This document shows positions 3,579 to 31,145 of a stretch of 36,298 nt of DNA, piece by piece (the first letter of the stretch is position 1; the number at the start of each line of letters is the position of its first letter). The notes below the pieces were generated by a model that did not search any database, was not told the origin of the DNA, and saw only the letters and a program-made list of their open reading frames with translations. Origin of the DNA: Planctomycetota bacterium (GTDB lineage: Bacteria; Planctomycetota; Planctomycetia; Gemmatales; Gemmataceae); contig JACOUH010000060.1 of assembly GCA_016177925.1 (NCBI GenBank), positions 1-36,298 on the forward strand, written 5' to 3'. A program made the position numbers and the translations under genes.

Positions 3579-5315
3579 ATGCCATCCACGCGCCACCTCT
3601 TCGGCGGACTGCTCGGCCTTGTCCTGTGCGTCAGTCCGCTCCGCGCCGAGAAACCGCCGTCGCCGTTGCGACTGATCCCCGCCGAGGCCGACCTTGTCAT
3701 TCAGACCGAGGCTCCCCGCCAGCTCGTCGAGGCCGTCCTTACCCTTGACTACATCAAGAATCTGCAAAGTCTCGATGCCTTCAAGGAAGTCCTCGATGCG
3801 ACGCAGACACGCCGCTTCTTCCAGATGGTCGCCTGGTTCGAGCGTGAACTTGGCGCCTCCTGGCCGGAGCTACTCGACCGCCTTGGCGGCGGCGGGGCAG
3901 CGCTGGCCGCCAAAATCGGCGAGAATTCCCCCGCGCTGCTCGTCCTGCAGGGGACCGACGAGAAGGCCCTTCACAAGTTCGCTGACCTGCTGCTGAGCGT
4001 CATCGAGCAGGAGCAGGAGCGGCAGGGCTCGAAGGAACGCCCGGTGAAGAGCACCTACAAGGACGTCCAGACCGTGCGCATCGGCAAGGACTTCCACGCT
4101 GCCCTCGTGCAGGGCGCTCTGCTCATCAGCAACAAGGAGAAGGCGCTGCAGCGCGCTCTCGACCTCGCCGCCGGCCGTGACAAGAAGAGCTTGGCGGACA
4201 ACGCCGACCTCGCCGACGCCGCCCGGCTGCTGCCGAAAGGCACCCTGGCTTCACTGTGGCTGAACATGGACACGGTCCGCAAGCAGCCGGGCGGCGAGGC
4301 GCTCTACAAGACGCCGCGCGATCCGTTCTTGACCATCGTCCTCGGCGGCTGGGCCGACATTGCCAGCCGTGCCCGCTATGCTTGCCTTGGGGTGGTCCCT
4401 GACAAGACGGGACTGCTGGCGACCCTCCGCCTCCCCGCTGGCCGGATCGGCATGGGGCCGGACCGGGGCGTCGTCTGCCCGCCCGACGGACAGCCCGGCT
4501 CGCGGCCGCTCCTGGAGCCCAAGGGGGTCCTGTTCAGCGAGAGCTTTTACTGGGACCTGTCCGTCTTTTGGACCGACCGCATCAAGCTCTTCGGCGAAAA
4601 GAACGCGAAGAACATCGAGCAGTTCGATGAGAACTCGGGCCGCTTCCTGTCGAATTTCCGGTTCAGCAAGCTGCTGAGCCAGGCCGGCACCTATCACCGC
4701 TTCGTCGCGGTCCATCAGCCGAAGAAGGGCTACAAGAAGCAGCCCAAGACCGCCTTGCCTGCCTTCGCCTTCGTCACGGAGATGCGCAAGCCCGACGAGT
4801 TGAGCAAGGCAATGGAGACGCTCCTGCGCGGGGCGGCCCTGATTGGCGGCTCCCAGTTGGGGCTGCGGCTCGTTGAGGAGAAGCACAAGGACTGCAACAT
4901 CGTCGCCTACCGCTTCCCCGAAGACCGCGAGGTGAAGGCCGACGTCAACGACATCCGCTTCAACTTCAGCCCGACGTTCGTCCGCATCGGCAACCAGTTT
5001 GTCTTCAGTTCGACGCAGGAACTGGCCCGCAACCTCGTCGACGTGCTGCAGGCCGAGGCGAAGGGCACGGACAAGGGGGCCGCGCCGACGGAGCGCATCC
5101 GTCTCTACCCCGAGGGCGGCGCCGCGACGCTGAAGACTTTCGAGGATCAGCTTATCACGCAGACGGTCCTCACCTCGGCGGTGCCAGTCGACGAGGCCCG
5201 CGCGCAGATACGCAAACTGATCTACTTGTTGAGCAAGACGGGCGGGCTGACGCTGGAGACGACCTACGCCCCCAAGGAGTTCCACGTCGACCTCCGGCTG
5301 AGATTCACAAAGTGA
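3579..5315 (+). CDS. Secreted protein of unknown function (planctomycete type)
   Basis: This 578-residue protein matches no named family that I recognise. Residues 1-23 form a signal peptide (a hydrophobic FGGLLGLVLCVSP, then an LRA cleavage site), so it is exported. The body is a mixed alpha/beta sequence rich in Lys and Glu, with no evident enzyme motif and no membrane segment. Phrases such as GTLASLWLNMD and FVFSSTQELARNLVDVLQ recall the large planctomycete exported proteins annotated as hypothetical or DUF3352-like; that is only a resemblance. The ATG at 3579 is chosen because the signal peptide starts there; the frame is open upstream to 3201 but overlaps the divergent gene. GGGAG lies about 12 bases upstream. 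Confidence 0.8.
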   Translation: MPSTRHLFGGLLGLVLCVSPLRAEKPPSPLRLIPAEADLVIQTEAPRQLVEAVLTLDYIKNLQSLDAFKEVLDATQTRRFFQMVAWFERELGASWPELLDRLGGGGAALAAKIGENSPALLVLQGTDEKALHKFADLLLSVIEQEQERQGSKERPVKSTYKDVQTVRIGKDFHAALVQGALLISNKEKALQRALDLAAGRDKKSLADNADLADAARLLPKGTLASLWLNMDTVRKQPGGEALYKTPRDPFLTIVLGGWADIASRARYACLGVVPDKTGLLATLRLPAGRIGMGPDRGVVCPPDGQPGSRPLLEPKGVLFSESFYWDLSVFWTDRIKLFGEKNAKNIEQFDENSGRFLSNFRFSKLLSQAGTYHRFVAVHQPKKGYKKQPKTALPAFAFVTEMRKPDELSKAMETLLRGAALIGGSQLGLRLVEEKHKDCNIVAYRFPEDREVKADVNDIRFNFSPTFVRIGNQFVFSSTQELARNLVDVLQAEAKGTDKGAAPTERIRLYPEGGAATLKTFEDQLITQTVLTSAVPVDEARAQIRKLIYLLSKTGGLTLETTYAPKEFHVDLRLRFTK

Positions 5316-9726: not shown

Positions 9727-9987
9727 ATGAACCTCTTCCGCATCCTCTGGGACGACCCGGATGATCCGGATGGCAACGTTCAGCACATCGCGGAGCACGG
9801 TTTGACCATCGAAGATGTCGAGGAGGTGCTGTCCAACCCGACCAGCACAGGCACGAGCGCTTCCTCGGGGCGACCGTGCGTCTGGGGCTACACGCTCGAG
9901 GGCATCTACGTGATTGTCGTCTACGACGAAATCGATCAGGACACCATTCGCGTCGTGACGGCGTATGAGGTTCCCGAATCTCGGTAA
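9727..9987 (+). CDS. Putative toxin, BrnT-like small protein (pair 1)
   Basis: This 86-residue protein has the outline of a BrnT-like or other RelE-fold small toxin: an N-terminal strand with a Trp (ILWDDPDDPDGN), the NVQHIAEHGLTIEDVEEVL helix, then SSGRPCVWGYTLEG and the strands YVIVVYDE and TIRVVTAYEV. The KHG-V-x-x-x-EA region of BrnT is echoed by EHGLTIEDVEEV. It is followed at once by a helix-turn-helix gene, the usual toxin-antitoxin order for such families. It is clearly homologous to the protein encoded at 11137-11385 on the other strand. The family assignment is by pattern only; it could instead be a separate uncharacterised planctomycete family. Confidence 0.65.
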   Translation: MNLFRILWDDPDDPDGNVQHIAEHGLTIEDVEEVLSNPTSTGTSASSGRPCVWGYTLEGIYVIVVYDEIDQDTIRVVTAYEVPESR

Positions 9988-9997
9988 GGTTCAACCC

Positions 9998-10315
9998 ATG
10001 AGCAAGAAAATCGAACGCGTGTTCCGCGAAGGCCGGCTGTCGGCGGAAGAAGTCGCTCGCGATGAGGAGGTTCGCCGCAAGGTGCAGGCGGAGTTTCCAC
10101 CCGCGGCGCCGAGCGGCAGCGCATCGGGGCGGCTGAGCCAGGCCCTCCGGGACGCCCTTCGGGCCAGCGACAAGTCAATGTATCAAATTGCGCAGGACGC
10201 CGGCGTATCGCAGATCGTGGTGTCGCGTTTCCTCTCCGGCGAACGCGACATCCGCATGGCCACGGCGGACAAGCTGGCCGAGGCACTCGGCTTGAAGCTC
10301 GCGAAAGCATCGTGA
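9998..10315 (+). CDS. XRE-family HTH protein, putative antitoxin (pair 1)
   Basis: This 105-residue protein has a basic N-terminal half followed by a Cro/C1-type helix-turn-helix at about residues 48-102 (LRDALRASDKSMYQIAQDAG, then VSQIVVSRFLSGERDI and ADKLAEALGL). It would bind DNA and probably represses its own operon and neutralises the toxin encoded 11 bases upstream. The ATG at 9998 is chosen for its MSKK start and the AAGG upstream; an ATG at 9965 overlapping the toxin gene is in frame too. The N-terminal linker with EEVRRKVQAEFPPA resembles RRTIEQEFPPV in the second pair's HTH protein, so the two antitoxins share ancestry. Confidence 0.78.
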   Translation: MSKKIERVFREGRLSAEEVARDEEVRRKVQAEFPPAAPSGSASGRLSQALRDALRASDKSMYQIAQDAGVSQIVVSRFLSGERDIRMATADKLAEALGLKLAKAS

Positions 10316-10786: not shown

Positions 10787-11116
10787 TTACACTTTCTCTT
10801 CCATCAGTTCGAGACGTAGCCCGAGCGCGTGGGCTACCGCCTGCACCGTCGATAATTGCGCATCCCGCCCGTATTCGAGATCGCGGACGGTGTTGGCGTT
10901 GGGAATCCCGGCCAGTTTGGCGAGCGCGTACCAGGTCAAGCCGCGGGCTTCCCTCGCCTGACGAATCCGAGCGGGGATGCCGGGGGGTGATTCCGGGCGT
11001 CCAGCACCTTCGACCGGCGGGAATTCCTGCTCGATCGTTCGCCGGATGGTCGCGTGGCGTTCTCGCTCTTCCGCCGTCGCTGGTCGCACGATTCGCTTGA
11101 ATCGCTTCTCTGCCAT
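10787..11116 (-). CDS. XRE-family HTH protein, putative antitoxin (pair 2)
   Basis: This 109-residue protein has a basic N-terminus (MAEKRFKRIVRPATAEE), a linker RRTIEQEFPPV, and a helix-turn-helix at about residues 48-105 (IRQAREARGLTWYALAKLAG, NANTVRDLEYG, TVQAVAHALGLRLEL). It would be the DNA-binding antitoxin of the toxin-like gene just upstream (11137-11385). The ATG at 11116 is preceded by AGAGGG at 7 bases. A second in-frame ATG at 11137 overlaps the toxin stop as TGATG, so translational coupling is possible. The gene is convergent with pair 1. Confidence 0.78.
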   Translation of the reverse strand: MAEKRFKRIVRPATAEERERHATIRRTIEQEFPPVEGAGRPESPPGIPARIRQAREARGLTWYALAKLAGIPNANTVRDLEYGRDAQLSTVQAVAHALGLRLELMEEKV

Positions 11117-11136
11117 GGGACTACCCTCTACTCGCA

Positions 11137-11385
11137 TCAGGGTTCGGGGACTTCATAGGCGGTGACGGGATAGATCGTGTCTGCATCAACGGCTTCATAC
11201 ACGACGATGATATAGCTGCCATCGGGCACCGTGCCGAAAACGCAAGGCGGGCGAGACGATCGGCTGACCGCTTCGCTGTCGGGGTTGGCCAGCACGAGCT
11301 CGACATCGTCAACCGTCAGTCCATGCTCTTCGACGTGTTCGACGTTGCCGCCGGGTTCTTCATTCCAGATGATTTGTTGCCACAC
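11137..11385 (-). CDS. Putative toxin, BrnT-like small protein (pair 2)
   Basis: This 82-residue homologue of the protein at 9727-9987 shares GNV-x-H, EHGLT-x-x-DVE-x-VL-x-NP, RPPCVFG and IVVYE...DTI...VTAYEVPE. The N-terminal Trp strand (QIIWNEEPGG) is also kept. The start is GTG at 11385 with a strong AGGAGG 8 bases upstream. The stop overlaps a possible ATG of the downstream HTH gene, as is common in toxin-antitoxin operons. Conservation of the RPxCVxG and VVYE segments between the two copies points to functional residues. The toxic activity is an inference from the fold outline and gene order. Confidence 0.65.
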   Translation of the reverse strand: MWQQIIWNEEPGGNVEHVEEHGLTVDDVELVLANPDSEAVSRSSRPPCVFGTVPDGSYIIVVYEAVDADTIYPVTAYEVPEP

Positions 11386-30800: not shown

Positions 30801-31145
30801 ATGAAGAGACCGGCGCAAATCCTGTTCCTGGCAGTGCTCCTAGCGGGATGCACGGACCGAGGCGGGAAGAACGTGCCCCCCAACCGTCCGGAGAAGGACG
30901 TTCAGGCGTACGTGACGATCTATGTCCCGGGAATGACCTGAGCGTCTTGCCCGGACGCGGTCCAAGGCAAGTTAGCCGCTCTACCGTGGGTAGAGTATCG
31001 CACGATCGAGCCAGACGGGGAAACGAAGCAGGTCAAGTTCGGGGTCAACGATAGGAAGAGTTTCAGCGTCGAGGCGCTGACCGAGGCGCTGGGGCCGCGT
31101 TATGGCAAGGGGATGGAAGTCGTCCAGGGCCCCGAGCCGAAATGA
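30801..31145 (+). CDS. Probable selenoprotein: heavy-metal-associated (HMA) lipoprotein
   Basis: Read with TGA 30939-30941 as selenocysteine, this is a 114-residue protein. Residues 1-17 form a lipoprotein signal with lipobox LLAGC (Cys17), so it should be anchored outside the cytoplasm. Residues 37-105 are an HMA (MerP/CopZ-like) domain: VTIYVPGMT, Sec47, A-S-Cys50, PDAVQGKLAALPWVEY, then KQVKFGV and SVEALTEALG. In the family the motif is GMTCxxC; here Sec replaces the first metal-binding Cys exactly. The frame continues to TGA 31143 with no other stop. ATG 30801 has AGGAG 8 bases upstream. A two-part hairpin follows the TGA. Ordinary annotation would miss the gene or call a 46-residue fragment. 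No metal transporter is adjacent. Confidence 0.85.
30939..30941 (+). other. In-frame TGA read as selenocysteine (residue 47)
   Basis: Context is GGA ATG ACC TGA GCG TCT TGC, i.e. G-M-T-Sec-A-S-C. It is the only stop before the final TGA and occupies the position of an invariant metal-binding Cys. Confidence 0.82.
30946..30971 (+). promoter_or_regulatory. Candidate bacterial SECIS hairpin (HMA lipoprotein gene)
   Basis: The lower stem CTTGCC (30946-30951) pairs with GGCAAG (30966-30971). A small internal loop (C against AA) separates it from an upper stem GGAC (30953-30956) with GTCC (30960-30963), closed by a GCG loop whose first base is G. That G lies 16 bases after the TGA, at the short end of the known range. 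Bulged stems with a G in the apical loop are typical of bacterial SECIS elements. Confidence 0.75.

Follow-up and report, generated by a model that had tools for sequence, protein, structure and literature searches.

The gene and its product

The window, that is, the whole stretch of DNA that was analysed (36,298 nucleotides), was contig C408 (JACOUH010000060.1) of the genome of a Planctomycetota bacterium of the Gemmataceae (GCA_016177925.1). It contained a small gene, the product of which was predicted to be a lipoprotein with an HMA domain and selenocysteine (Sec) at its metal site (Table 1). The frame starting with ATG 30801 was interrupted solely at codon 47, giving VPGMT-U-AS-C, and was translated as MKRPAQILFLAVLLAGC-TDRG...VTIYVPGMT-U-AS-C-PDAVQGKLAALPWVEYRTIEPDGETKQVKFGVNDRKSF..., which confirmed the claim of the first-pass annotation that a lone internal TGA occupied the position of the first Cys of GMTCxxC. 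The lipobox proposed in that annotation could be read directly in the sequence as LLAGC (consensus [LVI][ASTVI][GAS]C), but the Pfam lipobox models scored below threshold.

Table 1. Features of the Sec-HMA lipoprotein gene in the window, followed by its paralogs on other contigs of the same genome
Feature	Position	Strand	Details
Sec-HMA lipoprotein gene	30801..31145	+	114 codons, one internal TGA, terminal TGA 31143-31145
Predicted signal peptide up to lipobox LLAG-C17	30801..30851	+	direct sequence reading; lipobox-type G-C in most homologs
In-frame TGA, residue 47, putative Sec, first metal-site ligand	30939..30941	+	TGA at this column in 51/69 aligned genes, Cys codon in 18/69
Hairpin of the first-pass annotation	30946..30971	+	lower stem CUUGCC/GGCAAG, upper GGAC-GCG-GUCC
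TGC, Cys50, second ligand	30948..30950	+	TGA (Sec) at this codon in 25 relatives
Hairpin B, proposed SECIS	30979..30995	+	CUCUACC-GUG-GGUAGAG, over codons L61-P62-W63-V64
Paralogs on contig C75			two in tandem, GMYU-ARG-U and LTU-LA-U
Paralog on contig C72			GMHU-PGS-C
Paralog on contig C372			GMTU-PVG-U

The Pfam HMA model (PF00403) spanned residues 39-97 with an E-value of 4e-7 and 30.7 bits against a gathering cut-off of 24.8. An AlphaFold2 model, built from a 46-row alignment with Cys substituted for Sec, had a mean pLDDT of 86 and values of 94-97 over residues 31-110, and the order of its strands and helices was that of the ferredoxin-like HMA fold. The closest fold in the PDB was oxidised MerP (1osd), with a TM-score of 0.82 on the target. 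By sequence, the family profile also matched the HMA domains of Cu-ATPases, MerP and CopZ.

Selenocysteine machinery of the genome

The Sec machinery presupposed by the first-pass annotation was found in the draft genome (7.35 Mb, completeness estimate 83%). A selB gene scoring above the cut-off adjoined selA on contig C393, selD was present on contig C471 (L097) with an internal TGA of its own, and two tRNA-Sec genes with the anticodon TCA were located (L015:1501-1596 and L016:1501-1596; contigs C322 and C15). Additionally, contig C72 carried two DUF3179 genes with an in-frame TGA in the known selenoprotein motif SWUPLCQ (L157:2214-4120 and about 4280-5313), one of which was fused to a DsbD membrane domain. 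Judging from this gene content, Sec decoding is very likely active in the organism.

The presence of two different tRNA-Sec genes within one genome was unusual. The two SWUPLCQ genes lay near a Sec-HMA paralog on C72, which may represent a selenoprotein cluster.

Paralogs and homologs

The first-pass annotation had treated the gene as a lone case. It belonged instead to a family whose members have one or two Sec residues, and four further Sec-HMA lipoprotein genes with TGA at HMA ligand codons were detected in the same genome (Table 1). Dozens of matches were obtained from the 95 genomes of the bacterial family that were searched, and their internal stops were nearly all TGA. Among 69 aligned motif-bearing genes, part of which had been fetched for carrying TGA, there were 26 of the U..C, 25 of the U..U and 18 of the C..C type. 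In the Gemmataceae, about 50 homologs were intact and carried TGA at the codon of the first ligand. The nearest relatives of the window gene included both Sec forms (L041, 53% identity) and Cys forms (L084, 43%), and Cys was aligned to residue 47 in L084, L085 and L086, as the first-pass annotation had anticipated for a true selenoprotein. Breaks of the frame at other places, which that annotation associated with a pseudogene, were not the pattern seen: the frames of relatives were broken at the Cys-ligand positions, nearly always by TGA.

The dN/dS ratio behind the TGA was 0.05-0.26 in 10 of 12 close pairs, the two higher values being 0.88 (L046/L067) and 0.39 (L057/L044). A selA gene above the cut-off was recorded in 85 of the 95 genomes. 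Among the matches listed, zero TGA-HMA genes came from the near-complete genomes without selA (G032, G039, G049 and G094), and completeness was below 90% in each of the few selA-lacking genomes that did have TGA-HMA genes. Judged on sequence, the gene is a member of a selenoprotein family and not a pseudogene, given the roughly 50 TGA homologs, the Cys alignment and the purifying selection behind the TGA. The comparison likewise supports the view that the UGA of codon 47 is decoded rather than terminating, and that it stands where relatives have Cys.

Near-identical lipoproteins were also found in related genomes of another planctomycete family (L109 versus L119 and L133), with TGT as the first ligand codon in one and TGA in the others; this difference resembled a recent exchange between Cys and Sec. 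A second Sec-HMA subfamily (L010:1083-1433, L037, L060:769-1110 and L076) was set apart by additional residues separating GM from the UxxU site and by the lack of hairpin B. A gene of this subfamily adjoined a GMxU gene in L010, L060/L141 and L152.

RNA hairpins downstream of the UGA

The RNA of the window gene was folded as two neighbouring hairpins. The first (30946-30971) had been described in the first-pass annotation and did fold as described there, with an energy of -12.7 kcal/mol that was equalled by 10 of 200 shuffles. The distance from the TGA was 5 nt to the start of its stem and 15 nt to its GCG loop. This hairpin was not conserved in relatives, many of which had a GUGCG...CGCAC hairpin (A) in its place and in a different register. 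The conserved element was the second hairpin (B, 30979-30995), which had been overlooked; its energy was -10.8 kcal/mol, and only 1 of 200 shuffles was equally good. Of the five RNA folds computed in this comparison, that of L064 was set aside because its input sequence truncated the hairpin.

Over 36 genes, 97.6% of the cells of the hairpin B helix were paired, against 59.9% for hairpin A, and double changes were observed in 4 of the 7 pairs of hairpin B. The 36 genes were members chosen for an LPWV-like motif, so the 97.6% was favoured by the choice, while the compensatory changes were unaffected; in a set of 49 distinct Sec genes not selected for LPWV, pairing of the hairpin B helix was 83.1%. 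Variant stems included CUUUACC/GGUAAAG, CCUUACC/GGUAAGG, CUUUGCC/GGCAAAG and GUCUGCC/GGUAGAC, the third of which turned Val into Ala, and in some members Trp was replaced by Cys or Gly with the G of the loop retained. Of the genes encoding LPW[VA], 30 of the 34 with Sec had a perfect hairpin B stem, compared with none of the 5 with Cys (p = 2e-4, a value that is optimistic because the genes are related). The codons CTA/TTA made up 2.1% of the Leu codons and GTA 2.0% of the Val codons in the other genes of the window, and each of the genome's four LPWV paralogs contained these rare codons. Such data support the proposal that hairpin B is under selection at the RNA level and is associated with Sec.

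The core TACCGTGGGTA was found in four copies in the genome, one in each LPWV Sec-HMA gene. Hence, hairpin B is not regarded as a SECIS serving the genome at large. When the hairpin was searched for together with ATGNNNTGA 37-40 nt upstream in 84,980 species, 22 loci were obtained, and 22 of 22 were Sec-HMA genes of Planctomycetota. Across the other 94 genomes, the 11-mer alone was not commoner than the control and many of its copies lay outside Sec-HMA genes; therefore, specificity required the full hairpin together with the upstream TGA. An Rfam search of the window gave no matches.

The GUG loop of hairpin B started 44 nt after the UGA in the window gene and 47 nt after it when the ligands were one residue further apart. 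The published model of the bacterial SECIS has a spacing of 16-37 nt, although some elements fall outside this range (PMC13188914). Because its spacing exceeds the usual range, hairpin B is treated here as a proposed SECIS. Like the canonical bacterial SECIS, it is a hairpin within the coding sequence downstream of the UGA, with a loop of 3 nt starting with G; unlike it, hairpin B was near-identical across planctomycete families and was found here only in HMA genes.

It is possible, but doubtful, that the hairpin at 30946-30971 (or hairpin A of the relatives) is the SECIS and that hairpin B is otherwise employed, for example in ribosome slowing or for a second UGA. A loop at 15 nt is near the published range, the divergent members L064-L079 had no hairpin B and carried only the upstream GUGCG-GUC-CGCAC with changes on both sides, and in Sec/Sec genes hairpin B lay 35 nt after the second UGA. 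However, genes with a single, first UGA retained hairpin B, the upstream hairpin of the window gene was in another register and not conserved, and the pairing of hairpin A was far below that of hairpin B. Hairpin B thus stays the preferred candidate, though not a universal one, because the divergent members have the upstream hairpin only. The recoding signal seems to have moved during evolution, since those divergent members with one UGA and without hairpin B have a canonical hairpin.

Proposed function of the protein

It is very probable that the gene encodes an exported, lipid-anchored HMA selenoprotein, in which Sec is inserted at the UGA under the guidance of downstream hairpins and forms part of a soft-metal site. 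We propose that tRNA-Sec and SelB would insert Sec at UGA 47, guided by the downstream RNA hairpins and chiefly by hairpin B. The signal peptide and lipobox would then place the domain in the periplasm, attached to the membrane, where U47 and C50 may together bind soft metals in the manner of MerP/Atx1. Selenolate is ionised at neutral pH and is softer than thiolate. In the proposed scheme it would trap a metal ion, Hg(II), Cu(I) or Ag(I), and then hand it on or hold it, and a shift of metal choice by Sec is a reasonable prediction.

The sequences give hints of mercury or copper for the family; genes for MerR, a MerT-HMA fusion and an RND pump were located about 5.5 to 10 kb away from the C72 paralog. 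The neighbours of the window gene were a DAHP synthase and a PPC-domain protein on the other strand. As the adjacent genes included no recognised metal gene, any metal named for the window gene would be a guess.

Alternatively, the protein could be a selenoprotein with a redox site at the envelope, serving selenenylsulfide exchange or the reduction of peroxide instead of metal carriage. We regard this as unlikely. Most selenoproteins are redox enzymes, thiol oxidoreductases also have UxxC pairs, and the contig of the C72 paralog bears DsbD-type and DUF3179-DsbD proteins. However, the same contig has the MerR and MerT-HMA genes, the fold and the sequence are those of HMA/MerP, and in the characterised HMA domains that are known both Cys residues are metal ligands.

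Two further explanations were rejected. A pseudogene or sequencing error, with the TGA as a true stop and decay behind it, would be compatible with the small size of the gene, its lone TGA and the draft state of the assembly, but is rendered highly improbable by the intact relatives with TGA in the same column, the low dN/dS, the covarying hairpin and the lack of listed TGA-HMA matches in the near-complete selA-less genomes. Reassignment or suppression of UGA to another residue (Cys or Trp) would equally leave the frame open, but is just as improbable given the tRNA-Sec and selAB of the genome, the Cys of the compared homologs at this position, and the other genes of the window, which were translated normally under table 11.

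It is somewhat more likely than not that the Planctomycetota have a phylum-deep family of envelope lipoproteins, present in several copies per genome, with one or two selenolates as metal ligands per HMA site. In this reading, a SECIS peculiar to the family and placed at 44-47 nt would impose LPWV on the protein through the RNA, as suggested by the covarying pair that changes Val to Ala and by the replacement of Trp with Cys or Gly where this is compatible with the loop.

Relation to known systems

Sec-containing proteins of the HMA type have already been predicted. The UxxU metal-binding (seleno)protein NF041115 was first reported from an Olavius algarvensis symbiont (PMC13188914). It shares with the present family an HMA-type domain with Sec at ligand positions, and has two Sec residues as do 25 genes here. 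However, its model of 74 positions covers only the HMA part of the lipoproteins, and all five Sec-HMA proteins of the genome scored 22-54 bits against a cut-off of 95; the window protein, with 21.9 bits and UxxC instead of UxxU, falls outside this model. A MerP-like selenoprotein and putative mercuric transport proteins with Sec were recorded in the GOS survey (PMC2398784), and Sec has also been predicted in other heavy-metal-associated proteins, including the MerT/CopZ selenoprotein NF045683 and a UxxC P-type ATPase (PMC13188914). Those are transporters, ATPases or single survey entries, and NF045683 gave 14-44 bits, where it matched, against a cut-off of 375.

MerP (TIGR02052, 1osd) and CopZ/Atx1 have the same fold and GMTCxxC loop, and MerP is also extracytoplasmic, but they are soluble proteins with Cys, whereas the proteins described here have a predicted Sec and a predicted lipid anchor. 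The five proteins of the genome scored 27-61 bits with TIGR02052 against a cut-off of 92.55 and the window protein 31.5 bits, which places it outside the MerP equivalog.

The five proteins were far below the cut-off of every NCBIfam model matched, and the words lipoprotein and planctomycete are absent from a 2026 review of prokaryotic selenoproteins. The family is therefore called new in its lipid anchoring, the number and spacing of Sec residues (U2C, U3C, U2U, U3U), the copies per genome and the dedicated distant hairpin. The combination of the lipoprotein family with its RNA signal was not found in the literature searched, the coverage of which was incomplete, so that an earlier mention is possible.

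To our knowledge, Sec is known mostly from redox enzymes and has hardly been studied as a ligand of captured metal. Cys/Cys, Sec/Cys and Sec/Sec sites occur here in related genomes on a well-studied metallochaperone fold, which makes it possible to test directly how selenium affects the choice and transfer of metal. Hairpin B offers a clear case of an RNA signal dictating protein sequence and probes the maximal UGA distance for the action of a bacterial SECIS. Ordinary annotation would truncate or miss the Sec-HMA lipoprotein genes.

Elsewhere in the window, two small gene pairs in opposite orientation, each resembling a BrnT-type toxin and a helix-turn-helix partner, were recognised by eye alone at 9727-10315 and 10787-11385.
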